The position numbers and the translations under genes were made by a program. A DNA stretch of 64,000 nucleotides from Bryobacteraceae bacterium (GTDB taxonomy: Bacteria; Acidobacteriota; Terriglobia; Bryobacterales; Bryobacteraceae): NCBI GenBank assembly GCA_025056865.1, contig JANWVO010000048.1:1-64000 (forward strand). The letters run 5' to 3'. Positions 45,450-59,597 of the stretch are shown here, in pieces (within the stretch, counting starts at the first letter, position 1; each line of letters begins with the position of its first letter). Below the pieces are notes generated by a model. It searched no databases. It was not told where the DNA came from and worked only from the letters and a program-made list of their open reading frames with translations.

Positions 45450-46355
45450 ATGTCCGAACGCGCCGCCCGTCTCCGCGCCGCTCTGGAGCGCCGCCAGGCC
45501 CTCGTCGTCCCGGGCTGCCACGACGCCCTGAGCGCCCGCATCATCGAATCTGCCGGATTCGAGGCCGTCCAGGTCTCCGGCTTCGGCCTCGCCGGCTCGC
45601 TTCTGGCCCTGCCGGATGTCGGCCTCGTGGAAATGAAGGACATCCTGGACATCACCGGCAATATCGCCCGCGCCGTGAAGATCCCCGTCATGGCCGACAT
45701 CGACACCGGCGGCGGCAATGCGCTCAATGCCGCCCGCATCACTGAACGCCTCATTGAAATGGGCGTCGCCGGCGTCAACATCGAAGACCAGGTCTTCCCC
45801 AAGCGCTGCGGCCACATGGAAGGCAAACAGGTCATCAGCGCCGAGGAAATGGCCGGCAAGGTGCGCGCCATGGCCGACGTCCGCGCGCGCACGGGACGCG
45901 ACATCGTCATCAATGCCCGCACCGACGCCTACGCAGTGCTGGGCCTCGATGAGGCCATCCGCCGCGCAAACCTTTACCTTGAAGCCGGCGCCGACATGGC
46001 CTTCATCGACGGCATTGGCACCCGCGCCGACATCATGCGCGCCGTGCGCGAAATCCGCGGCCTGCTCTCGGTCAACCTCATGGACGCCGTCACCGGCGTC
46101 AAGACCGAACTGATCCCCATCCCCGAGCTTGCAGCCATGGGCGTGGCGCGCGTCTCGATCCCCATCGCCTCCATCCTGGTCATGCACCGCGCGCTCACCG
46201 ACTTCTTCTGCGATCTGCGCAGCTCCCCCACCGGCATCCTCGCCGGCGAAGTCCATCGCATTACGTCGTTCCGCGACTTCACCCGCTTCGTCGGCCTGCC
46301 GCAGTATCGCGAGATGGAGGACAAATATCTGCCGCCCCGCGGCGGCGTCTGCTGA
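45450..46355 (+). CDS. PEP mutase/isocitrate lyase-family C-C lyase
   Basis: A 301-residue (beta/alpha)8 enzyme of the PEP mutase/isocitrate lyase superfamily. The metal-binding IPVMADIDTGGGNALN and active-site loop VFPKRCGHMEGKQV (KRCGH) put it with the lyases that split 2-methylisocitrate, 2,3-dimethylmalate, oxaloacetate or similar acids, not with PEP mutase. It heads a four-gene cluster with LeuC-like, LeuD-like and dehydrogenase genes. GGGGAGGAG precedes the ATG and TAATCT (45422-45427) may be the -10. In Eubacterium barkeri, 2,3-dimethylmalate lyase works with a LeuCD-like dehydratase, which is the closest described logic. The actual substrate is unknown. Confidence 0.8.
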   Translation: MSERAARLRAALERRQALVVPGCHDALSARIIESAGFEAVQVSGFGLAGSLLALPDVGLVEMKDILDITGNIARAVKIPVMADIDTGGGNALNAARITERLIEMGVAGVNIEDQVFPKRCGHMEGKQVISAEEMAGKVRAMADVRARTGRDIVINARTDAYAVLGLDEAIRRANLYLEAGADMAFIDGIGTRADIMRAVREIRGLLSVNLMDAVTGVKTELIPIPELAAMGVARVSIPIASILVMHRALTDFFCDLRSSPTGILAGEVHRITSFRDFTRFVGLPQYREMEDKYLPPRGGVC

Positions 46356-46366
46356 GGAGGCCCGCC

Positions 46367-47605
46367 ATGAGCATGACCCTCGCCGAAAAGATCCTGGCCC
46401 GCGCTTCGGGCCGTTCCCGCGTCGCTCCCGACGAGATCGTCGTCGCCGACATCGACCTCGCCATGAGCCACGAAAACGCCGACCTGGTCCGCAAGGCGTT
46501 TCTCGAAATCGGCGTCCCGCGCGTCTGGGACCCCGAGAAGATCGTCATCATCTTCGACCACCGCATCCCGGCCGAAAGCGAGAAGACCGCTGCCACGCAC
46601 AAGGCCGTCCGCGAGTTCGTCCAGCAGCAGGGCATCCGCCACTTCTACGACGTGGGCCGCGGCGGCATCTGCCACCAGGTGCTGGCAGAGAACGGCCATG
46701 TGAAGCCCGGCATGGTGGTCGTCGGCACGGATTCGCACACCACCACGCACGGCGCTTTCGGCGCCTTTGCGACCGGCATCGGGGCCACGGAAATGGCCGG
46801 CGTGTGGGTGGAGGGGAAGCTCTGGTTCAAGGTGCCCTCCACCATCCGCATCGAAGTGGAGGGCGAATTCGCCCCGTGGGTCTCGGCCAAGGATCTGATC
46901 CTCTGGATCATCGGCAGGCTCGGCGCGGCCGGGGCCGACTACCGCGCGGTTGAGTTCGACGGCCCCGCCGTCCGCCGCATGAGCGCCGCCTCCCGCATGG
47001 TGCTCTGCAACCTGTCGATGGAGATGGGCGCGAAGACGGCCTTCACGCCCGTTGCCGAAATCGGGCCGGACCCGGAAGCGGAATACGAGCGCGTCCTGCG
47101 CGTGAACCTTGACTATGAGATTCCGGAGCCGCAGATCGCCTGCCCCCACTCGGTCGACAACGTGAAGCCGTTGTCGGAGCTGGGCGACGTGCCCGTGCAT
47201 CAGGCCGTGCTTGGCTCCTGCACCAACGGGCGCCTGGAGGACCTCGAAGTGGCCGCGCGCATCCTGGCCGGGCGCCGCGTCCATCCCCACACCCGCCTTA
47301 TCGTGATTCCCGCCTCGCAACGCGTCTACCTGGACGCCATCCGTCTCGGCTACGTGCAGACGCTCATCGAGTCCGGAGCCATCATCAACCCGCCGGGCTG
47401 CGGCCCCTGCGTCGGCGTCCATCAGGGCATCCTCGCCGCCGGCGAGGTCTGCATCTCGTCCACGAACCGCAATTTCATCGGGCGCATGGGCAGCAAGGAT
47501 TCGTACGTCTACCTGGCCAGCCCCGCCGTCGTCGCCGCATCGGCCGTCGCCGGCCGCATCGTCCATCCCGAAGTTGTCATGGCAAAGGAGCACGCCCATG
47601 TCTGA
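46367..47605 (+). CDS. Aconitase-family hydro-lyase large subunit (LeuC-like)
   Basis: A 412-residue LeuC/homoaconitase-type large subunit. The three cysteine ligands of the labile 4Fe-4S cluster are visible in VLGSCTNGRLEDL and PPGCGPCVGVHQG. VVVGTDSHTTTHGAFGAFATGIG is the family's substrate-site motif. The short length matches the archaeal-type/3-isopropylmalate dehydratase-like group that also includes 2,3-dimethylmalate dehydratase. It starts 11 bases after the lyase gene with GAGGAGG, and its end overlaps the small-subunit start by 8 bases. No 2-isopropylmalate synthase gene accompanies it, so leucine biosynthesis is not the obvious role. Confidence 0.85.
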   Translation: MSMTLAEKILARASGRSRVAPDEIVVADIDLAMSHENADLVRKAFLEIGVPRVWDPEKIVIIFDHRIPAESEKTAATHKAVREFVQQQGIRHFYDVGRGGICHQVLAENGHVKPGMVVVGTDSHTTTHGAFGAFATGIGATEMAGVWVEGKLWFKVPSTIRIEVEGEFAPWVSAKDLILWIIGRLGAAGADYRAVEFDGPAVRRMSAASRMVLCNLSMEMGAKTAFTPVAEIGPDPEAEYERVLRVNLDYEIPEPQIACPHSVDNVKPLSELGDVPVHQAVLGSCTNGRLEDLEVAARILAGRRVHPHTRLIVIPASQRVYLDAIRLGYVQTLIESGAIINPPGCGPCVGVHQGILAAGEVCISSTNRNFIGRMGSKDSYVYLASPAVVAASAVAGRIVHPEVVMAKEHAHV

Positions 47606-48125
47606 CGTCCCCTTCGTCCTCCGCGGCCGCGTTGCCGCCGTGCTCGGGGCCAACATCGACACCGACGTCATCTACCCCGGCCGTTATCTGAACATCACCG
47701 ACCGCGACAAGACCGCCGAGCACCTGTTCGAGCTCGCCTACCCGGAAATCCGCCAGAAGCTCCGGCCCGGAGATTTCCTCGTCGCCGGACCGAACTTCGG
47801 CTGCGGCTCCAGCCGCGAGCAGGCGGCCGCAGCGCTGAAGTATTCCGGCTGCGGAGCCGTCATCGCCGCAAGCTTCGCGCGCATCTTCTACCGCAATGCC
47901 ATCAACCTCGGCCTGCCCGCCATCGTCAGCGCCTCCGCCGCGGGCGAGTGCCGCGAAGGCGACGAGCTCGAAATCGACCTCGCTGCCGGCGAGATCCGCA
48001 ACCTTTCGCGGCGCATCACGCTGGCCGCGGCTCCGCTCGATCCCCGCGCCATCGAGCTTCTCCGCGCGGGCGGTCTCATCCCCTATCTGAAGGCGAAGTA
48101 CGCCGCCGCCCCTGCGGCGGGCTGA
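47598..48125 (+). CDS. Aconitase-family hydro-lyase small subunit (LeuD-like)
   Basis: A 175-residue swivel-domain subunit. [15 protein letters not shown] and [17 protein letters not shown] are the classic LeuD/homoaconitase small-subunit motifs, the second binding the substrate carboxylate. The ATG at 47598 is chosen since AAAGGAG ends 7 bases before it; an earlier frame start at 47574 lies inside the large-subunit gene. It pairs with the overlapping large-subunit gene to form an active dehydratase/isomerase. Substrate choice, decided partly by the YPGRYL loop, is not known. Confidence 0.88.
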
Positions 48126-48145
48126 CCCGGCAAGGAGGTGCATCC

Positions 48146-49258
48146 ATGGCAAAGCATCAGATCGCATGGCTCCCCGGCGACGGCATCGGCGTCGAGGTCT
48201 CCGCCGCCGCGCGCACCGTGCTCGACGCCGCCGGCTTCGAGGCCGACTACCACCACGGCGACATCGGCTGGCACTTCTGGGTCACCGAAGGCGACGCGCT
48301 GCCGCAGCGCACGCTCGACCTGCTTCAGCGCACCGAGTGCGCCTTCTTCGGCGCCATCACCTCCAAGCCCGCCGCCGAGGCGGCGCGCGAGCTCGCGCCA
48401 GAGCTTCAGGGCCGGGGCCTCTCCTACCGCAGCCCCATCGTGCGCATGCGCCAACTGCTCGATCTCTACATCTGCCAGCGCCCCTGCCGCGCCATTCCGG
48501 GCAATCCGCTCAACTACCGCGAGGGCATCGATCTCGTTGTGTTCCGCGAGAACACCGAAGGCATGTACGTCGGCGTCGAATTCCCCAGCGTGCCGGAAGC
48601 CTTCTACGCGGAGAAGGCGATGTCGCGCATTCCCCGCGACGCCGCCATCAGCATCCGCTCCATCACCGCCCGCGCCTCGCGCCGCATTGTCGAGGCGGCG
48701 TTCGAATTCGCCCGCCGCAACGGGCGCCGCAAGGTAACCGCCGTGCACAAGGCCAACGTGCTGCGCGCCACCTGCGGGCTTTTCCTCGAGCAGGCCACCG
48801 AAGTGGCGGCCCTGTATCCGGACATCGAGTTCGACACCGCCAACGTCGACGCCATCTGCATGTGGCTGCTCAAGAACCCGCACAACTACGACGTCATCGT
48901 CACCACGAACCTCTTCGGCGACATCCTTTCCGACCTCTGCGCCCAGCTCGTCGGCGGCATGGGCTTCGCTTACAGCGGCAACATCGGCGAGAAGTATGCC
49001 GTCTTCGAGCCGACGCACGGCTCCGCGCCGAAGTACGCCGGCCTGAACAGGGTGAACCCGATCGCCGCCATTCTCGCCGCCGCGATGATGGCCGGCTGGC
49101 TCGGCGAAAAGGACGTCGAAGCGGCCATTCACCGCGCCGTCGAAGAGGTGGTGCGCCGCGGCGAGGTCCGCACCTACGACATGGGCGGCACGTCCACCAC
49201 GACGGACATGGCCGAGGCCATCGCCCGCGAGGCGGCGCGCATCCGCGCAGCCGCCTAG
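48146..49258 (+). CDS. Isocitrate/isopropylmalate-dehydrogenase-family enzyme
   Basis: A 370-residue NAD(P)-dependent beta-decarboxylating dehydrogenase. Motifs are WLPGDGIGVEVS, IVRMRQLLDLYICQRPCR (substrate arginines), FRENTEGMYVGVEF, VHKANVLR (catalytic Lys), the metal-site TTNLFGDILSD and FEPTHGSAPKYAG. NTEGMYVG resembles the homoisocitrate/isocitrate group more than strict LeuB. AAGGAGGTG precedes the ATG at 48146. It completes the lyase-LeuC-LeuD cluster and is probably co-transcribed. Together these enzymes could rearrange and oxidatively decarboxylate a substituted malate. Stop codons overlap with the convergent aldo/keto reductase. Confidence 0.85.
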   Translation: MAKHQIAWLPGDGIGVEVSAAARTVLDAAGFEADYHHGDIGWHFWVTEGDALPQRTLDLLQRTECAFFGAITSKPAAEAARELAPELQGRGLSYRSPIVRMRQLLDLYICQRPCRAIPGNPLNYREGIDLVVFRENTEGMYVGVEFPSVPEAFYAEKAMSRIPRDAAISIRSITARASRRIVEAAFEFARRNGRRKVTAVHKANVLRATCGLFLEQATEVAALYPDIEFDTANVDAICMWLLKNPHNYDVIVTTNLFGDILSDLCAQLVGGMGFAYSGNIGEKYAVFEPTHGSAPKYAGLNRVNPIAAILAAAMMAGWLGEKDVEAAIHRAVEEVVRRGEVRTYDMGGTSTTTDMAEAIAREAARIRAAA

Positions 49259-51641: not shown

Positions 51642-52946
51642 TCACGCCTCGCGGCGGGGGCGGTTCACGCGGACATGGTCCGTGTCCTGCTGCGGCACGC
51701 CATCGCATTCCATGGCGATGGTCGTGATGGGGCTGTCCGGCGCCGTTTCCGGCAGCCCGGTGAAGCGCACGCGGAACTCGTCCTGCTCGAACTTCACCGG
51801 CGCGCCGCTGGCCAGCAGGCGTGCGGAAAGCACGCGGTTGCGCAGCCCGGCCAGCGCCACGGTGCTGCCAGGCCAATAATGAACGTGCGCAAAGAGCGTG
51901 TGGCCGCGGCGCGTGAAGCTCATGTAGTTGGAGCGCGACACCTGGCACGGCTCCGCCGTGTAAATGGCGGAGCCGTTGCGTGCGAGCCACTGCCCCATCC
52001 CGGTCAGGATCCGCACGCTCTCCGGCGGAACGCTTCCGTCCGCCATCGGGCCGATGTTCAGCAGATAGTTGCCGCCCAGCCGCGCGCAGGTGATCAGGTG
52101 GCGCAGGCATGTGCGCGCCGGCTTCCAGTTGTCGTCGGCCCGGTGGTAGCCCCAACTGTCGTTCATCGTCATGCAGGACTCCCAGTCGCGCGCCTTCGAG
52201 GCTTCAATGCGCTGTTCGGGCGTGTCGAAGTCCTCGGGCACGCGGCTGCGGTTGTTGATGATGATGTCCGGCTGGAGCTGCCGCACCATGCGGTTCATCT
52301 TCACGCTTTCCCAGCCCTCGGCGTCGAGCGGCCAGGCGACGTCGTACCACAGGATGTCCACCTTGCCGTAGTTGGTCATCAGCTCGCGGACGTGCGTGTG
52401 GACGTAGTCGACGAAGCGCCGGCGCGCCGCCTCGTCCGTGCGGCAACGCGCCCCGTCGGGATGGTGCCAGTCCATCAGCGAGTAATAGAAGCCGACTCGC
52501 AGGCCTTCGGCGCGCGCCGCATCCACGAACTCCTTCACGAGGTCGCGCCCGGCGGCCTGTTTCGGAGCGCAGTAAGAGGTGGTCGACGTCTGGAAGAGGC
52601 AGAAGCCCTCGTGGTGCTTGGTGGTCATCACCATGTACTTCATGCCCGCCTTCTTCGCCAGCGCCGCCCACTCGCGCGCGGGCCAGGGCTTCGGGCGGAA
52701 CTGCTTCGCCAACTGCTCGTATTCGGCCACGGGAATGCCTTCGTTCTCCATCACCCATTCGTGGCGGCCGAGCACGCTGTACAGGCCCCAGTGGATGAAC
52801 ATCCCGAAGCGCGCCTCGCGCCACCACTTCATGCGGCGCTCGCGGTCCTCTTCGGTGCTGGTTTGCAGCGATGCTGCGGCCGGCGCGGCCGGGACGATCT
52901 TCAGATAATCGCGTCGCGAAACTCCCTTGGGCAGCATGGGGATCAT
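51642..52946 (-). CDS. GH29 alpha-L-fucosidase-like, Tat-exported
   Basis: A 434-residue GH29-type glycosidase releasing alpha-L-fucose. A Tat signal (VSRRDYLKIVPAAPAAAS) precedes the barrel. Family marks are ARFGMFIHWGLYSVLGRHEW, YMVMTTKHHEGFCLF, VGFYYSLMDWHHPD and KVDILWYDVAWPL, where the Asp of YD is the expected nucleophile (many members have FDG there). LGGNYLLNIGPMADG closes the catalytic part, followed by a small beta domain. The ATG at 52946 has GGAG 7-8 bases upstream. It sits beside other exported hydrolases for complex carbohydrates. Confidence 0.88.
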   Translation of the reverse strand: MIPMLPKGVSRRDYLKIVPAAPAAASLQTSTEEDRERRMKWWREARFGMFIHWGLYSVLGRHEWVMENEGIPVAEYEQLAKQFRPKPWPAREWAALAKKAGMKYMVMTTKHHEGFCLFQTSTTSYCAPKQAAGRDLVKEFVDAARAEGLRVGFYYSLMDWHHPDGARCRTDEAARRRFVDYVHTHVRELMTNYGKVDILWYDVAWPLDAEGWESVKMNRMVRQLQPDIIINNRSRVPEDFDTPEQRIEASKARDWESCMTMNDSWGYHRADDNWKPARTCLRHLITCARLGGNYLLNIGPMADGSVPPESVRILTGMGQWLARNGSAIYTAEPCQVSRSNYMSFTRRGHTLFAHVHYWPGSTVALAGLRNRVLSARLLASGAPVKFEQDEFRVRFTGLPETAPDSPITTIAMECDGVPQQDTDHVRVNRPRREA

Positions 52947-53007
52947 GCTATCACTCCGGCCGCGGCAGGCCCGCGCGGAACCGGGCCGCAATGCAGGCTT
53001 CCGCTGA

Positions 53008-53013
53008 TAGAAT
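53008..53013 (+). promoter_or_regulatory. Putative -10 (TAGAAT) of the VOC-GH fusion gene
   Basis: TAGAAT lies 27 bases before the ATG at 53041. The intervening leader carries AGGAGGG, so this gene looks conventionally led, unlike the leaderless candidates. Confidence 0.4.
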
Positions 53014-53040
53014 GGCACCGGCTTGCGGCCAGGAGGGCAT

Positions 53041-55854
53041 ATGCGGCGCCTGATCTTCGCGATGCTGATGGCGGCGGCGGCCTGCGCGCAGATGCCGGAG
53101 CCTTACCGCCGCGTGGCCCGGCTGCTGTGGATCGTTCCGGACGTGGAGAAGACGGCCGAGGCGTGGCGCGGGATCGGCGTTCCGGTGGACGAGGCGGCCC
53201 GCGCGGAGTTCCTTCTGGCCGGCGGCTCCGCGCACGGAGGGCTGGCGGCCACGGGCCACTTCGCCAACCTGCGCGTGGACTGGGTGCAACCCGAGCCGGG
53301 CCCCGGCCCGCTCTCGCGCTTCCTCGGGCAGCGCGGCGCGGGCGTGTTCGCGCTGGCTTACGAACTGCCCGGCGCGGAGGAGCTTGGCCGCGAAATCGCG
53401 CGCTTCCGCGAGGCGGGCGTCGGCGTGCTCGAGCAGGGCGAAATGCGCATCGGCAGCGAGAGGACGCAGTACGCGTTTCTCGACACCGCGCGCGAAGGCC
53501 GGTTCGTTCTTGCGCTGCTGGTCCGCAGCGGCAACGGCGGCAATGCGGCGGGAACGATGCGCGTCTCGCAGCTCGCTTTCGTGGTGCGCGATCCCGAGCC
53601 CGTCTCCGCCTTCTGGGCGCGGCTCGGCTTTCCGCCCTTCACCTTCACCCACCCGGATCTTGGGGACAAGACGTACCGGCGCCGTCCGGCGGATTTCGAC
53701 ATGCGCCTCGGCTGGCAGCGCCACGCGCAGATGCCGTTCGAGTGGATCCAGCCGCTGCGCGGGCCCAGCGTCTATGAGGACCATCTGGCGAGGCACGGCG
53801 AGGGGTTCCACCATCTCGCCTTCGATGTGCCGGACATGGACACAGCCATCCGGCGCTGGGAGTCGCTCGGCTATCCGCTCACCATGTCCGGCTCCTGGGG
53901 CGAGACGGGCAAAGCAGGCAGCGGACGCTTCGCCTATGTCGACGCGCATGCGATCGGCGGAACCGACATCGAGCTGCTGTGGAACTACCGCGCGCCCGCG
54001 CCGCCGCCCGCCGCGGGGCCCTTCGTGCTGAAATTTCCCGCCGGCGAGCCGCTGCCGGAGCACCGCATTCCCGTCGCCCGCCTGCGCTGGCCTTCCGACT
54101 GGCGCGCCTGGCGAGGACTCACGTTTGAATTCCTCGCGTCCTCGGTGGAAGCCTTCGCCTTCGGCTTCTCCGACGGCGCGCAGGTGAAAAGCCTCATCAT
54201 GGAGCCGCTGCCGGGCCTGCGCATCCGCGCCTTCCTCCCATTCGACGCCTTCTGGCAGACGCGGACGATGACGCCGCTGCTCCCGCTCGGCTACAAGGCA
54301 TGGCCCGAACGCCTGTTCACGTTCGAGCGCTTGGAGGAAATCGTCATTCGCATGAAATACCCGGCGGCGGAGGCCACGCTGACCCTTTGGAATCTCGCGC
54401 TCGCCGCCGAGGACTTGCGCGACGAAATCCTCGACCGCAGGCCGGTGATCGACGCCTTCGGCCAGTGGATGGGCGAGGACTGGCCCGGCAAGGCGCACTC
54501 GCTCGAGGAGCTGAAGAAGCTGTGGGCGGAAGACCGCCTGCCAAAGGCCGAATATCCCGACTACTGCCCTCTGGGCGGCTACCGCCGGCAGACCGTGAGT
54601 CCCGCCAACGCTGCCGGCAGGCCCGGCTTCTTCCGCGTGGCGGAGATCGAAGGCCGATGGTTCTTCCTCGACCCGCACGGCCACCCGTTCTTCTCCGCCG
54701 GCATGGACCTGGTGGGCTGGCAGCAGGGCTCGTTTGCGACGCGGGTCACCGGACGGGAGTTTCTCTTCGAACAGCTCCCGCCGCCCGGACCCGCCTGGCT
54801 GACGCCCGGTCAGGACGTGTCCTTCTACGTGGCCAACCTCATGCGCCGTTACGGGGAGAAGTGGCAGGAGGAGTGGAAGAAGGCCATCGCCGCGCGCCTC
54901 AAGAACTGGGGCTTCAACACCATCGGCAACTGGAGCGACCCCGGCATCGCCTCCTCCGCCGGCATGCCCTACGTCGTGCCGCTCTATGGCTGGACGACGA
55001 AGAAGACGTTCCCCTTCCCCTGGGACTTTCCCGACGTCTTCAGCGAAGAGTTCGAGCGCAACGTGGACGAGGCTGCGCGGAAGCAGTGCGCGCCGCTGCG
55101 CGACGATCCGAACCTGATCGGCTACTTCCTCGGCAACGAGCCGCACTGGGCGCGCGAGTTCGGCTCGCTGAAGCCCTGGGCCGACATGCTGCTCGAGGAC
55201 CCGGAGCCTTCCGCCACCAAAGCCGAACTCCTGCGCCGGCTGAAGGAGAACCCGGACCGTGCGGACGAAATCCGCCGCAACTGGGTGTTCGTTTGCGGAC
55301 GGAAATACTTCGAGACGATCGCCGCCGCGGTCCGACGCCACGATCCGAACCATCTGCTGCTCGGCATCCGCTATGCGGGCACGCCGCAGGATGAGTGGGT
55401 GAGGATGTCGTCGCTGTTCGACGTCTTCTCCATCAACATCTACACCGACGAGTTCCGCCCGAATCCGGCGCGGCTGGACCATTACGCGAAGCTTTCCGGA
55501 CGGCCCATTCTCATTGGAGAATTCACCGCCTGCGCGCCGGGGCGGGGCTTGCAGGGGCTTTTCTACTGGACCCACAAGGTGAAGGACCAGACACAGCGCG
55601 GCATCGCCTACCGCTACTACGTCGAGAACGCCGCCGCGCATCCGGCCCTGATCGGCACGCACTGGTTCCAGCTTGTCGACGATCTGCCCACGGGGCGTCC
55701 GTCGGACCTCGAGCGGTTGAACTACGGCTTCCTCAACGTGCTGGACCTGCCCTACAGGCCCCTGGTCGAGTACGCGCGCGAAACGCACCGGCGGATCTAC
55801 GAGGTGAAGTTCGGCAGGACGCCCCCGTACGACCGCAAGCCGCTCGTTTTCTGA
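53041..55854 (+). CDS. Secreted fusion of two VOC domains and a GH-A clan (agarase-like) hydrolase
   Basis: A 937-residue exported protein (signal MRRLIFAMLMAAAACAQ). Residues ~23-155 form a degenerate VOC (glyoxalase-fold) module. Residues ~165-312 form a better VOC module with Gln177, Glu234, His257/258 and Glu311 where metal ligands are expected. A beta-rich, carbohydrate-binding-like stretch follows (~315-455). Then comes a TIM-barrel hydrolase reminiscent of beta-agarases (GRWFFLDPHGHPFFSAG), with Glu700 in GNEP and Glu827 in LIGEFT as likely acid/base and nucleophile. AGGAGGG precedes the ATG. The combination of VOC and glycosidase in one exported chain is unusual; the frame is continuous, so it is not two genes. 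Confidence 0.75.
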   Translation: MRRLIFAMLMAAAACAQMPEPYRRVARLLWIVPDVEKTAEAWRGIGVPVDEAARAEFLLAGGSAHGGLAATGHFANLRVDWVQPEPGPGPLSRFLGQRGAGVFALAYELPGAEELGREIARFREAGVGVLEQGEMRIGSERTQYAFLDTAREGRFVLALLVRSGNGGNAAGTMRVSQLAFVVRDPEPVSAFWARLGFPPFTFTHPDLGDKTYRRRPADFDMRLGWQRHAQMPFEWIQPLRGPSVYEDHLARHGEGFHHLAFDVPDMDTAIRRWESLGYPLTMSGSWGETGKAGSGRFAYVDAHAIGGTDIELLWNYRAPAPPPAAGPFVLKFPAGEPLPEHRIPVARLRWPSDWRAWRGLTFEFLASSVEAFAFGFSDGAQVKSLIMEPLPGLRIRAFLPFDAFWQTRTMTPLLPLGYKAWPERLFTFERLEEIVIRMKYPAAEATLTLWNLALAAEDLRDEILDRRPVIDAFGQWMGEDWPGKAHSLEELKKLWAEDRLPKAEYPDYCPLGGYRRQTVSPANAAGRPGFFRVAEIEGRWFFLDPHGHPFFSAGMDLVGWQQGSFATRVTGREFLFEQLPPPGPAWLTPGQDVSFYVANLMRRYGEKWQEEWKKAIAARLKNWGFNTIGNWSDPGIASSAGMPYVVPLYGWTTKKTFPFPWDFPDVFSEEFERNVDEAARKQCAPLRDDPNLIGYFLGNEPHWAREFGSLKPWADMLLEDPEPSATKAELLRRLKENPDRADEIRRNWVFVCGRKYFETIAAAVRRHDPNHLLLGIRYAGTPQDEWVRMSSLFDVFSINIYTDEFRPNPARLDHYAKLSGRPILIGEFTACAPGRGLQGLFYWTHKVKDQTQRGIAYRYYVENAAAHPALIGTHWFQLVDDLPTGRPSDLERLNYGFLNVLDLPYRPLVEYARETHRRIYEVKFGRTPPYDRKPLVF

Positions 55855-55935: not shown

Positions 55936-57048
55936 TCAGCGCGGCTCCGGCTTCCAGCCCCACGCTTCCATCACGATCTCGAACACGCGCGTGTTGGGCA
56001 GGAAGCCGCGCACGCGTTCCGCGCCCGCGCCCATCGCCGTCACCAGCACTTCCTCGCCGGTGTGCGAATGGCCCACGCGGAGCGCCGGGATGCGGATCTC
56101 GTCCTTCGCGCTGTTCTTCGCCATCCACTCGTCCAGGCCTTCCAGCAGCGGCACGCCGCGCCGCCCGCCGGTGATGCGCAGCTCGAAGGAGTGATCCGCG
56201 GTGAAGATCAGCAGCGTCTCCTTCAGATCCACCTGCGAGGCGATCTCGCGGATCAGCCGGTCGAAGTTCACCAGGTTGTCCAGCCCCTTGCGCGGATCGT
56301 CGGTGTGCGCGTCCCACTCGATCATCAGGAAATACCCTTTACGGTTCGCGGAAAGGTGCTTCAGCGCGCGCCGCGCCGCGGCGGCGACATCCATCTCCGC
56401 TTCGCTGACCACGATGGGGCGCGCCTCGCTTTCCGGGACTTCGGCCAGCGAAGCATAGATGCGGCGGCCGGCCTTCTGCGCCGCCTGCTCGATCTCCTCG
56501 CCCGCCTGGCTCCAGATGGTCTTGCGGCCCGAGCCGATCACCACGTCGGGCCCGTCGCCAAAGCGCGGCGTGAAGATCTGCCGGAACAGCTCGCCCTGCT
56601 TGCGCCGGTCATTGGCATGGCCGTAGCACGCGGCGGGCGTGGCGTCGGCGATCGACACATTCGTCAGCACGCCCGTCGAGAGGCCCTTCTCCTCGGCGTA
56701 CTCGAGCAGCGTTTTCAGAATGCGGCCGTCTTTTTTCCCGCGCTCTGTGTCCGGCCCCATGCTGATGACGCCGTTCTGCGTCTTGACGCCGGTGACAATG
56801 GCGGTCATCCCGGCTGCCGAATCGCTCACGTAAGCGGTGGCCGTGGTGGTGTCCATCAGCCCCATGTGCGGCCAGCTCTGCACGTAGAGCTTCAGCGGCT
56901 CGCCGTATCCGTGCAGGCTGGCGGCGCTGACCGTGGAGACGCCGGCGGCATCGGCGAGGAAGAGGATCACGTTCTTCGCGCGCTTCTGCGCCGAGGCGGG
57001 CGCGAGCAGAAGCAGGGCGGCCAGAATGCACCGTGCAAGGCTTCGCAT
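55936..57048 (-). CDS. Alkaline phosphatase, exported
   Basis: A 370-residue alkaline phosphatase. After a signal peptide (LARCILAALLLLAPASAQ) come KNVILFLADAAG (metal Asp), AYVSDSAAGMTAIVTG with the phospho-acceptor Ser, FLMIEWDAHTDDP and FTADHSFEL with metal ligands, and GHSHTGEEV with the last His. The usual length of PhoA is greater, so this is a compact variant. It releases phosphate from monoesters in the periplasm. The ATG at 57048 gives the signal peptide; the longer upstream open frame runs antisense through the sialidase gene and is rejected. Confidence 0.9.
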   Translation of the reverse strand: MRSLARCILAALLLLAPASAQKRAKNVILFLADAAGVSTVSAASLHGYGEPLKLYVQSWPHMGLMDTTTATAYVSDSAAGMTAIVTGVKTQNGVISMGPDTERGKKDGRILKTLLEYAEEKGLSTGVLTNVSIADATPAACYGHANDRRKQGELFRQIFTPRFGDGPDVVIGSGRKTIWSQAGEEIEQAAQKAGRRIYASLAEVPESEARPIVVSEAEMDVAAAARRALKHLSANRKGYFLMIEWDAHTDDPRKGLDNLVNFDRLIREIASQVDLKETLLIFTADHSFELRITGGRRGVPLLEGLDEWMAKNSAKDEIRIPALRVGHSHTGEEVLVTAMGAGAERVRGFLPNTRVFEIVMEAWGWKPEPR

Positions 57049-57055
57049 GCCAGAG

Positions 57056-57061
57056 ATTCTA
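57056..57061 (-). promoter_or_regulatory. Putative leaderless -10 (TAGAAT) of the phosphatase gene
   Basis: On the complement, TAGAAT ends 7 bases before the ATG at 57048 with no Shine-Dalgarno sequence between. It pairs with the same hexamer facing the other way at 57112. Confidence 0.45.
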
Positions 57062-57111
57062 GCGGGCGCCTGCGTCCGCCCGCTGTAACCGGGATGCAAC
57101 CGGCGCGGGTG

Positions 57112-57117
57112 TAGAAT
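57112..57117 (+). promoter_or_regulatory. Putative leaderless -10 (TAGAAT) of the sialidase-like gene
   Basis: TAGAAT ends 6 bases before the ATG at 57124 and is followed only by CCCGCC, so no ribosome-binding site exists in between. Confidence 0.45.
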
Positions 57118-57123
57118 CCCGCC

Positions 57124-58269
57124 ATGGCCGCCCTGAGCCGCCGCGCCCTGCTGGCCGCGCCTGCCCTCCTGCGCGCTGCCCGCATCCGCAAGACCGCCGA
57201 CATCGTCATCTACAGCGACGACCGCTTCTACAGCGCTTTCCCCAGCATCGCCCGCCTTCCCGGCGGAGAGCTGATCGTGGCCTTCCGGCGGGCGCCCGAG
57301 CGGCGGCTTCTCGGCGCGAAGGGTGTCACCCACACGGACGCGAACAGCCAGCTTGTGCTCGTCCGCTCGCGCGACGGCGGCAGGACATGGACGCGCGAGC
57401 CGGAGCTCCTTTTCTCGCACCCGCTCGGCGGCTCGCAGGATCCCTGCCTGCTCGCGCTGCGCGATGGCACCATCCTCTGCGCATCGTACCTGTGGATCCG
57501 CGTTGGGGCGGAGGCGCGCGGAACGGTGCCCGCCACGGTCTGGCTGGGCGATTACGCCTTCCACGGCGGCTACCTGCTGCGCTCGCGCGATGGCGGGCGC
57601 ACCTGGCAGGGGCCGTTCCCGCCGCCGCCCGTCCCCGGGCGCAGCGCCCGGGACTGCTACGGCGGTCCGCTGCCCGCCTGCAACCGCGGCGCCATGTGCC
57701 AGACGCGCGATGGAACCGTGCACTGGGCCGTTGCCTATCCGAAAGGAACGGACGCCGCCTCCGGTACCGATGTCCACTGGATGACCTCTGCCAATGCGGG
57801 CATGTCATGGCAGTACCGCGGCGTGCTCGCCACCGACAGCCGCGTGTCGTTCAACGAGACCTCGCTGTATGAAACTCCCTCCGGCGCCCTGGTTGCCTTC
57901 GTACGCACGGAAGGATTGGACGGCCGCGCGGCGGTGGTCCGGTGCGACCCGCGCACATGGCGCTGCGGCGCGTGGCAGGACGCCGGATGGCGCGGCCATC
58001 CGCTTCAGGCCGTACGTCTGGAGGATGGCCGCGCGCTGCTCGTCTACGGTTACCGCCACCCGCCCTACGGCGTCCGCGCGCGCATCCTGAACGCCGAATG
58101 CACGGACTTCGCCGCTGCGGAGGAGATGGTGCTGCGCGACGACGGCGGCGGCACGGACCTCGGATATCCCTGGGCCGCCGTGCTGCCGGGCCGCCGCGTT
58201 CTCGTTGTGTACTACTTCCAGAAAGAGAACGGCACGCGGCACATCGCCGGCACGTGGCTCGAATCCTGA
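57124..58269 (+). CDS. Sialidase-like (BNR/Asp-box) exported protein
   Basis: A 381-residue six-bladed-propeller protein of the sialidase/neuraminidase superfamily. It has a Tat-like signal (ALSRRALLAAPALLRAA). An FR-like motif reads IVAFRRAPE. Asp boxes SRDGGRTW occur twice (about residues 83-90 and 155-162), and a weaker SANAGMSW once. Such proteins cleave terminal sialic acid or act on other sugars; in soil acidobacteria many are of unproven specificity. It diverges from the alkaline phosphatase gene over a 75-base region carrying two opposed TAGAAT hexamers. Confidence 0.8.
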   Translation: MAALSRRALLAAPALLRAARIRKTADIVIYSDDRFYSAFPSIARLPGGELIVAFRRAPERRLLGAKGVTHTDANSQLVLVRSRDGGRTWTREPELLFSHPLGGSQDPCLLALRDGTILCASYLWIRVGAEARGTVPATVWLGDYAFHGGYLLRSRDGGRTWQGPFPPPPVPGRSARDCYGGPLPACNRGAMCQTRDGTVHWAVAYPKGTDAASGTDVHWMTSANAGMSWQYRGVLATDSRVSFNETSLYETPSGALVAFVRTEGLDGRAAVVRCDPRTWRCGAWQDAGWRGHPLQAVRLEDGRALLVYGYRHPPYGVRARILNAECTDFAAAEEMVLRDDGGGTDLGYPWAAVLPGRRVLVVYYFQKENGTRHIAGTWLES

Positions 58270-58328
58270 AGCCGCCCCGCCGCTGCTAGCATGAAACTTC
58301 CAGCTCGTTTGGTGGCCGGAGCCGTCCC

Positions 58329-59597
58329 ATGAAAACCATCCGCTTTCCCTCGCTCTCTCTTTCCCGGCGCGCCGTCCTTGCCGTTGCAGTGCCTGCCGTG
58401 GCCGTGCTGCTTGCGGCGCTGGAAATCAGCTCTGCCCCGTTTGCGCCGTCGCCGCTTCCGGACCGCATCGTGGCGAACTGGACTGCCTCGCCCGCCACTT
58501 CGTTCAGCGTCACCTGGCGCACGGACGCGAGCGTCGCGCAGGGCTTCGCCGAGATTGCGGAAGCGTCCGACGGCCCGTCTTTCGAAAAAAACGCCCGCCG
58601 CGTGGCGGCACGGAAGGAGGCCTACACCGCCGGCGGCAGGGCGGCGCACGCCTTCAGCGTGACGTTCGAGGGGCTCAGGCCGTCGACGGAATATCTCTAT
58701 CGCGTGGGCGACGGCGGCGAGTCCTGGAGCGAGTGGATTCCGTTCCGCACGGCGGCGGACCGCGAAGAGCCGTTCACGTTCCTCTATCTCGGCGACGCGC
58801 AGACGCGCATCCACGCCGCGTGGGCGCGTGTCGTGCGCAAGGCGTACGAGACGGCGCCCGACGCGCGCTTCCTCATCCACGCCGGCGACCTCATCAACAA
58901 CCACGACCGCGACGAGCAGTGGGGCGAGTGGCACGCCGCCAGCTCGTGGGTGCAGCGAGTCATTCCCGCCATGCCCGTGCCCGGCAATCACGAATACGGC
59001 CGCGGCCCGGACGGGCAGCGGCGCCTCACCGTGAACTGGCGCGCGCAGTTCACGCTGCCCGCCAACGGTCCCGAAGGTCTGGAGGAGACCTGCTACTTCG
59101 TCGACTTCCAGGGCGTGCGCCTCGTTGGGCTGAACTCGAACGAGAAGCTCAGGGAGCAGGCCGCGTGGCTCGACCGGCTGCTGGCGAAGAACCCCAACCG
59201 CTGGACCATCGTCTTCTTCCACCATCCGCTCTACTCCGGCGCCCGCGGCCGCGACAACCGCGAAGTGCGCGAGTTCTGGCAGCCGGTGTTCGACCGTCAT
59301 GGCGTCGATCTTGTGCTGAGCGGCCACGACCACATCTACACGCGCACGCGGCTCGTGCGCGGCGACGGCGCGCGGGAGGGAGGCACCGTCTACGTGATCA
59401 GCGTCAGCGGCGCCAAGATGTACGAGCCGGACGAGCGGCCGCAGTTTCCGAAGGTCATCGCCGGCACGCAGATGTTCCAGGTGATCCGCGTGCGCGGCGA
59501 CGAGCTCTCTTTCGAGGCGCGCACCGCCCGCGGCACGCTGGCTGACAGCTTTGTCATCGAGAAGCGCGGCGGCGGGAAGCGCCTCATCGAAAAATGA
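58329..59597 (+). CDS. Purple-acid-phosphatase-like metallophosphoesterase
   Basis: A 422-residue exported phosphoesterase. A twin-arginine-like signal/anchor (LSRRAVLAVAVPAVAVLLAA) is followed by an N-terminal fibronectin-like domain (FSVTWRTDASVAQG, LRPSTEYLYRVGDGG). The calcineurin-type catalytic domain shows FLYLGDAQ, IHAGDLINN, PVPGNHEYG, VFFHHPLY and LSGHDHIYTR, the full metallophosphoesterase motif set. It probably releases phosphate from organic esters outside the cytoplasm, complementing the alkaline phosphatase upstream. A TAGCAT hexamer lies about 40 bases upstream. The motif order is canonical. Confidence 0.88.
   Translation: MKTIRFPSLSLSRRAVLAVAVPAVAVLLAALEISSAPFAPSPLPDRIVANWTASPATSFSVTWRTDASVAQGFAEIAEASDGPSFEKNARRVAARKEAYTAGGRAAHAFSVTFEGLRPSTEYLYRVGDGGESWSEWIPFRTAADREEPFTFLYLGDAQTRIHAAWARVVRKAYETAPDARFLIHAGDLINNHDRDEQWGEWHAASSWVQRVIPAMPVPGNHEYGRGPDGQRRLTVNWRAQFTLPANGPEGLEETCYFVDFQGVRLVGLNSNEKLREQAAWLDRLLAKNPNRWTIVFFHHPLYSGARGRDNREVREFWQPVFDRHGVDLVLSGHDHIYTRTRLVRGDGAREGGTVYVISVSGAKMYEPDERPQFPKVIAGTQMFQVIRVRGDELSFEARTARGTLADSFVIEKRGGGKRLIEK

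Follow-up and report, generated by a model that had tools for sequence, protein, structure and literature searches.

The gene at positions 53041-55854 on the plus strand of the window (the whole 64,000-nt stretch of Bryobacteraceae DNA that was analysed) encodes, in a single open frame of 937 aa without internal stops, a predicted multi-domain glycosidase in which two VOC domains precede a GH50 part, and this domain architecture, joining two known folds, is real and conserved. Judging from sequence comparisons, we propose with a confidence that comes close to an even chance without reaching it that a metal-dependent VOC enzyme is tethered to the GH50 glycosidase and would act on the released sugar. 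More tentatively still, the two-VOC secreted protein of Acidobacteriota sugar loci may represent a new enzyme family that processes sugars outside the cytoplasm with the help of a metal, as an isomerase, epimerase or eliminase, and its fusion to GH50 may be a two-step machine that would cut a glycan and convert the sugar before uptake. What is new here is the VOC pair as a probable enzyme of sugar loci. VOC domains carry out glyoxalase, epimerase, dioxygenase and drug-resistance chemistry; to our knowledge, they are not associated with glycan breakdown, and among titles and abstract beginnings in the open-licence part of PubMed Central we found no report linking VOC or glyoxalase to glycoside hydrolase, agarase, CAZyme or sugar.

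The ATG at 53041 is preceded by a ribosome-binding-site-like AGGAGG motif (53031-53036, plus strand), read from the sequence, and the first 16 residues (53041-53088) resemble a signal peptide with A-x-A before Q17; the protein is putatively secreted on the basis of this start, as signal peptides of fused and unfused proteins alike were judged by eye. There follow, all on the plus strand, VOC1 (residues 17-165, 53089-53535), VOC2 (residues 175-316, 53563-53988), a Pro/Ala-rich joint (residues 317-330, 53989-54030; dN/dS 0.06 over these 14 residues within the genus), the GH50 N-terminal domain (residues 331-460, 54031-54420) and the GH50 catalytic barrel (residues 461-937, 54421-55851). The union of VOC and agarase-like glycoside hydrolase modules in one protein, the core of the original prediction, was confirmed by the single frame, by a two-stretch Pfam Glyoxalase_4 match (67.7 bits; gathering cut-off 27) and by the matches to GH50. 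AlphaFold models made from 4-row alignments had a mean pLDDT of 36.8 for the whole protein and 49.9 for the VOC part, values too low to tell whether the VOC pocket points towards the GH50 site.

In a phmmer search against PDB sequences, residues 444-925 matched the GH50 beta-agarases 4bq2 (E 3.3e-49), 4bq4, 6xj9 and 5z6p (E 3e-49 to 4e-42), and a profile of 17 relatives lengthened the match N-terminally into the N-terminal domain of 6xj9 (E 4e-97). The region originally described as carbohydrate-binding-like is therefore the N-terminal domain that GH50 agarases normally have; the predicted GH-A clan barrel is present and can now be assigned to GH50 specifically. Both anticipated catalytic glutamates were located by alignment, E700 as the acid/base (codon 55138-55140, plus strand; Aga50D E534) and E827 as the nucleophile (codon 55519-55521, plus strand; Aga50D E695). 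Together with N699, F876, R886 and E891 they complete the six active-site residues that in the 4bq2 alignment correspond to N533, E534, E695, F742, R752 and E757 of Aga50D, in the numbering given in PMC11079163. All 37 aligned GH50 rows agree at each of the six, a count in which the window's own row appears twice. Homology identifies the C-terminal part as a retaining GH-A glycosidase of family GH50. The label agarase-like was right at this family level; agar itself is not implied, because GH50, although mostly beta-agarase, includes a beta-galactosidase and beta-1,3-glucanases as well (PMC11079163). A second, distant GH50 lies elsewhere in the window's genome (G000:C52:215949-217475, L175), is 36-40% identical and has no VOC match.

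The VOC pair was present in 31 of 200 genomes drawn from the family (E <= 1e-20), fused in nine of them and encoded by separate VOC genes in the other 22. Residues 175-316 of the window protein matched 3gm5 (E 1.2e-9 by phmmer against PDB sequences; E 7.1e-21 with a profile), and the VOC1 fold is supported by a profile of 28 relatives against the same structure (E 2.9e-12). VOC2 has Q177, E234, H258 and E311 at the metal-ligand positions. Across the 28 of 31 VOC pairs that were aligned (all except L091, with an incomplete VOC1, and L096 and L097, with no VOC2 match), the first position is Q in 24 and H in four, and the remaining three are E, H and E in every sequence. The plausible metal ligands originally noted in the second VOC module are thus firmer than claimed, for VOC2 only, and VOC2 most likely binds a divalent metal. 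The corresponding positions of the window's VOC1 are R27, D80, A104 and A158, and metal ligands are absent from VOC1 in all 28 aligned sequences, with A, S or G at the third position and G, A or C at the fourth. A separate single VOC gene is also found in the window's genome (G000:C30:53058-53513, L004).

The ligand patterns bear directly on the main rival explanation, in which the VOC pair is non-catalytic and serves as a sugar-binding (CBM-like), dimerising or positioning module for GH50, while the metal site, where present, is structural or holds a sugar. We consider it somewhat unlikely, and it ranks first among the alternatives because one lineage (G220 and G212) keeps the fusion but has lost the VOC2 ligands. 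In the two fused genes concerned (L097:5158-7839 and L096:3494-5173, respectively), a shortened VOC2 has lost E234, H258 and E311, the frame and selection persist (dN/dS between the two species is 0.28 in this VOC2 and 0.15 in VOC1), and the G220 protein has no Pfam match at 0.001. The ligand-less VOC1 of all 28 aligned sequences also suits a non-catalytic role, whereas the retention of all four ligand positions in the 28 other VOC2 sequences, fused or unfused, argues against it, as does the fact that unfused VOC pairs have no GH50 next to them (one weak GH50-like neighbour, in L095).

In the catalytic reading, which we prefer, the retaining GH50 barrel (E700/E827) would free a sugar from a galactose-containing glycan, and VOC2 with its divalent metal would act on the freed reducing sugar. 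VOC metal sites in general chelate a pair of neighbouring oxygens and are able to shift a proton, and an open-chain reducing sugar offers such oxygens; its adjacent carbonyl and hydroxyl oxygens would be what the metal chelates. The chemistry would most likely be a proton transfer that takes place before uptake, such as an aldose/ketose or C2 interconversion or something related. VOC1 would be inactive itself and would complete or position the module, like its counterparts in other two-domain VOC enzymes.

The VOC pair is tied to sugar use by its gene neighbourhoods, by the co-occurrence of the unfused parts and by selection. At least one of five sugar markers (GH42, sodium:solute symporter (SSF), fucose-isomerase-like protein, FGGY kinase and GalT), which were selected with the loci already read, was present at 12 of 22 unfused VOC loci (5.6 to 11.5 kb) compared with 1 of 40 controls (10-kb stretches from six genomes); with the close relatives L085-L087 counted once the figure is 10 of 20, and p-values ignore kinship. 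Taken singly, the counts at unfused VOC loci and controls were 5 vs 0 for GH42, 5 vs 0 for SSF, 4 vs 0 for LacI, 5 vs 1 for the fucose-isomerase-like protein, 2 vs 0 for FGGY and 2 vs 0 for GalT, and no enrichment was seen for MR/MLE (3 vs 2) or the outer-membrane receptor (4 vs 3). Neighbouring genes were called with a home-made GC-position rule, by which some were mis-called, and their families were named only via Pfam or NCBIfam, or by phmmer against proteins so checked. GH42 lay no more than about 6 kb from the VOC pair in six of the 22 genomes (G042, G054, G037, G230, G215 and G125; Pfam, E 4.5e-50 or better). Outside the family, two of five VOC loci had sugar markers, L136 with a fucose-isomerase-like protein and a ribulokinase and L137 with a symporter and AraD; the ribulokinases of L082 and L136 score above one NCBIfam cut-off (NF003154), and AraD of L137 scores above those of NF006047 and NF009003. 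The same five markers were found at only 3 of 22 unfused GH50 loci and at none of the nine fused loci.

The neighbouring genes point to galactose, arabinose or fucose as the predicted sugars. The fucose-isomerase-like proteins of L085 (3746-5152) and L136 (2104-3510) fall below all NCBIfam cut-offs, the best being sulfoquinovose isomerase at about 88 of 700 bits; because a ribulokinase adjoins it, the L136 protein is perhaps an unusual pentose isomerase. Sulfatases adjoin the VOC genes in L042 and L043, with homologues in L088 and in the GH50 loci L047 and L050, and sulfatase-family genes lie beside VOC pairs or close GH50s at L042:5898-7412, L043:3125-4912, L172:836-2761 and L173:4238-6208; such neighbours would fit a sulfated glycan as substrate. 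In the window, the divergent neighbour of the fusion is a GH29 alpha-L-fucosidase-like gene (51642-53018, minus strand; Pfam Alpha_L_fucos, 301 bits), a homologue of which was present in the fetched stretch of four of five genomes of the genus vs 1 of 40 controls. Downstream, window positions 55939-59594 hold an alkaline phosphatase (minus strand), a BNR-repeat protein (plus) and a purple-acid-phosphatase-like gene (plus), with no obvious polysaccharide locus in this interval. Four consecutive plus-strand genes at 45450-49255, of the PEP-mutase/isocitrate-lyase type, the large and small parts of aconitase and the isocitrate/isopropylmalate-dehydrogenase type, possibly form a carboxylic-acid pathway of their own.

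The unfused VOC pair and GH50 also tend to occur together. A GH50 match (E <= 1e-15) was found in 20 of the 22 unfused-VOC genomes compared with 59 of 169 genomes without VOC among the 200 family genomes (Fisher 4e-7), and for close GH50s alone (>= 54%, including a contig-cut match in G122) the counts were 2 of 22 vs 1 of 169 (p 0.035). Among 395 other genomes of the phylum, five had the VOC pair (G518 contig-cut) and four a close GH50 (60-64%; G502 contig-cut), with both present and unfused in three (Fisher 4e-6, ignoring kinship; two of the three, G341 and G401, belong to one genus). GH42 adjoins GH50 in L045 and L046. The L174 cluster of G122 comprises GH50, LacI, outer-membrane receptor and GH42, its GH50 N-part being 54% identical over 156 residues before the contig cut, and clusters of the same kind in L037 and L040 have VOC with LacI, receptor and GH42. 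This company of sugar transport and catabolic genes speaks against the possibility, improbable in our view, that VOC2 is an extracytoplasmic metalloenzyme for the detoxification of reactive aldehydes or dicarbonyls and not for converting a sugar, a role suggested by the ligand set that VOC2 has in common with 3gm5, deposited as a lactoylglutathione-lyase-like protein.

Each of the four domains is under purifying selection. Within the genus, dN/dS (Nei-Gojobori, median of 10 pairs from five species, rough values with dS near 1) was 0.20 for VOC1, 0.095 for VOC2, 0.16 for the GH50 N-domain and 0.069 for the barrel, compared with 0.49 in the signal region and 0.98 in the 9-residue linker between VOC1 and VOC2. 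In trees from which L096 was left out and in which the partial L173 was kept, the GH50 sequences formed two groups of fused rows beside one clade of six unfused rows (100/100), and a single fused clade was not rejected (p-AU 0.148). For the VOC part a single fused clade was rejected (p-AU 0.0039); here the unfused L085-L087 of genus g47, which also contains the fused G168, G220 and G212, nest among the fused rows. The simplest reading of this history is one fusion followed by one separation, two fusions being a further possibility. Either course would also suit a neutral fusion in which the VOC part does no more than provide a promoter, a start and a signal peptide, and the dN/dS near 1 in the VOC1-VOC2 linker fits such a case; we give this explanation little credence, however, as the constraint on VOC2 in five species comes close to that on the barrel and as the VOC pair and close GH50s co-occur where they are unfused.

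The search for the same domain order recovered the fusion in nine of the 200 family genomes, from three genera of one family (G000-G004, G135, G168, G220 and G212), the whole protein being 77-85% identical in G001-G004 of the same genus; none was seen in the 395 other phylum genomes sampled. A gene 77% identical to the window's is also found in the public record DYJN01000111.1 (L034), which is titled 'Arcobacter sp.' and matches G002, so that the title is probably wrong. As a separate protein, the VOC pair occurs in the 22 further family genomes and in other families of the phylum. The original prediction had named close homologues without the VOC part, with a frameshift or assembly error near residue 312, as evidence against it. 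Such homologues do exist: six close unfused GH50s are 59-64% identical (L045 and L046 in the family, L170-L173 outside it), and five of them have their own signal-like N-termini and no VOC part, L173 being cut by the contig there. A frameshift, chimera or assembly error is excluded for practical purposes, with nothing found in its favour, since the joint is read through continuously in eight genomes (G000-G004, G135, G168 and G220) and reached in a ninth, G212, which enters the GH50 part and stops at the contig end.

The idea of a combined attack on a modified sugar, or of a sugar-binding use of the VOC fold, is partly supported, in that the VOC pair is tied to sugar use by neighbourhoods, co-occurrence and selection; the VOC2 ligands kept in 28 of 28 aligned sequences favour catalysis, and their loss in G220 and G212 favours binding. 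For the catalytic reading speak the six of six GH50 active-site residues, the conserved VOC2 ligands, the closeness of the VOC2 dN/dS to that of the barrel, the sugar markers at unfused VOC loci, the GH42 genes near both VOC and GH50, and the co-occurrence in family and phylum; against it are the lack of sugar markers at the nine fused loci, their presence at only 3 of 22 unfused GH50 loci and the G220/G212 lineage. Should VOC2 act on sugars, the fold would have a use that is new for it, and a new step would stand between hydrolysis outside the cell and uptake; should it only bind them, the pair would be an unusual accessory module of GH50. As fused, unfused and naturally ligand-less versions exist in related species, the question is directly testable.

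Compared with known systems, the window protein has in common with the GH50 beta-agarases Aga50D (4bq2), 6xj9 and 5z6p the N-terminal domain, the GH-A barrel, both catalytic Glu and the residues N533, F742, R752 and E757. These structures are without VOC domains, as the matches begin at the GH50 N-domain, and the window protein is distant from them, aligning far and in pieces. On the VOC side, 4-hydroxyphenylpyruvate dioxygenase (HPPD) and other two-domain VOC enzymes match the window protein weakly, and membership was rejected (NCBIfam TIGR01263, 10.9 bits vs a cut-off of 277). In HPPD, too, the first VOC domain is presumably dead and the next one binds metal, but we take its site to be a 2-His-1-carboxylate iron site in contrast to the four-ligand site of VOC2. 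Methylmalonyl-CoA epimerase has the same fold and also matches weakly, and membership was likewise rejected (TIGR03081, 28.9 bits, far under the cut-off of 114.95). With 3gm5 ('lactoylglutathione lyase and related lyases') VOC2 has in common the fold and the four ligand residues Q, E, H and E, which we take to be also the ligand set of human glyoxalase I; yet 3gm5 is a single VOC domain of 159 residues, whereas here VOC2 follows a ligand-less VOC1 in a putatively secreted protein.
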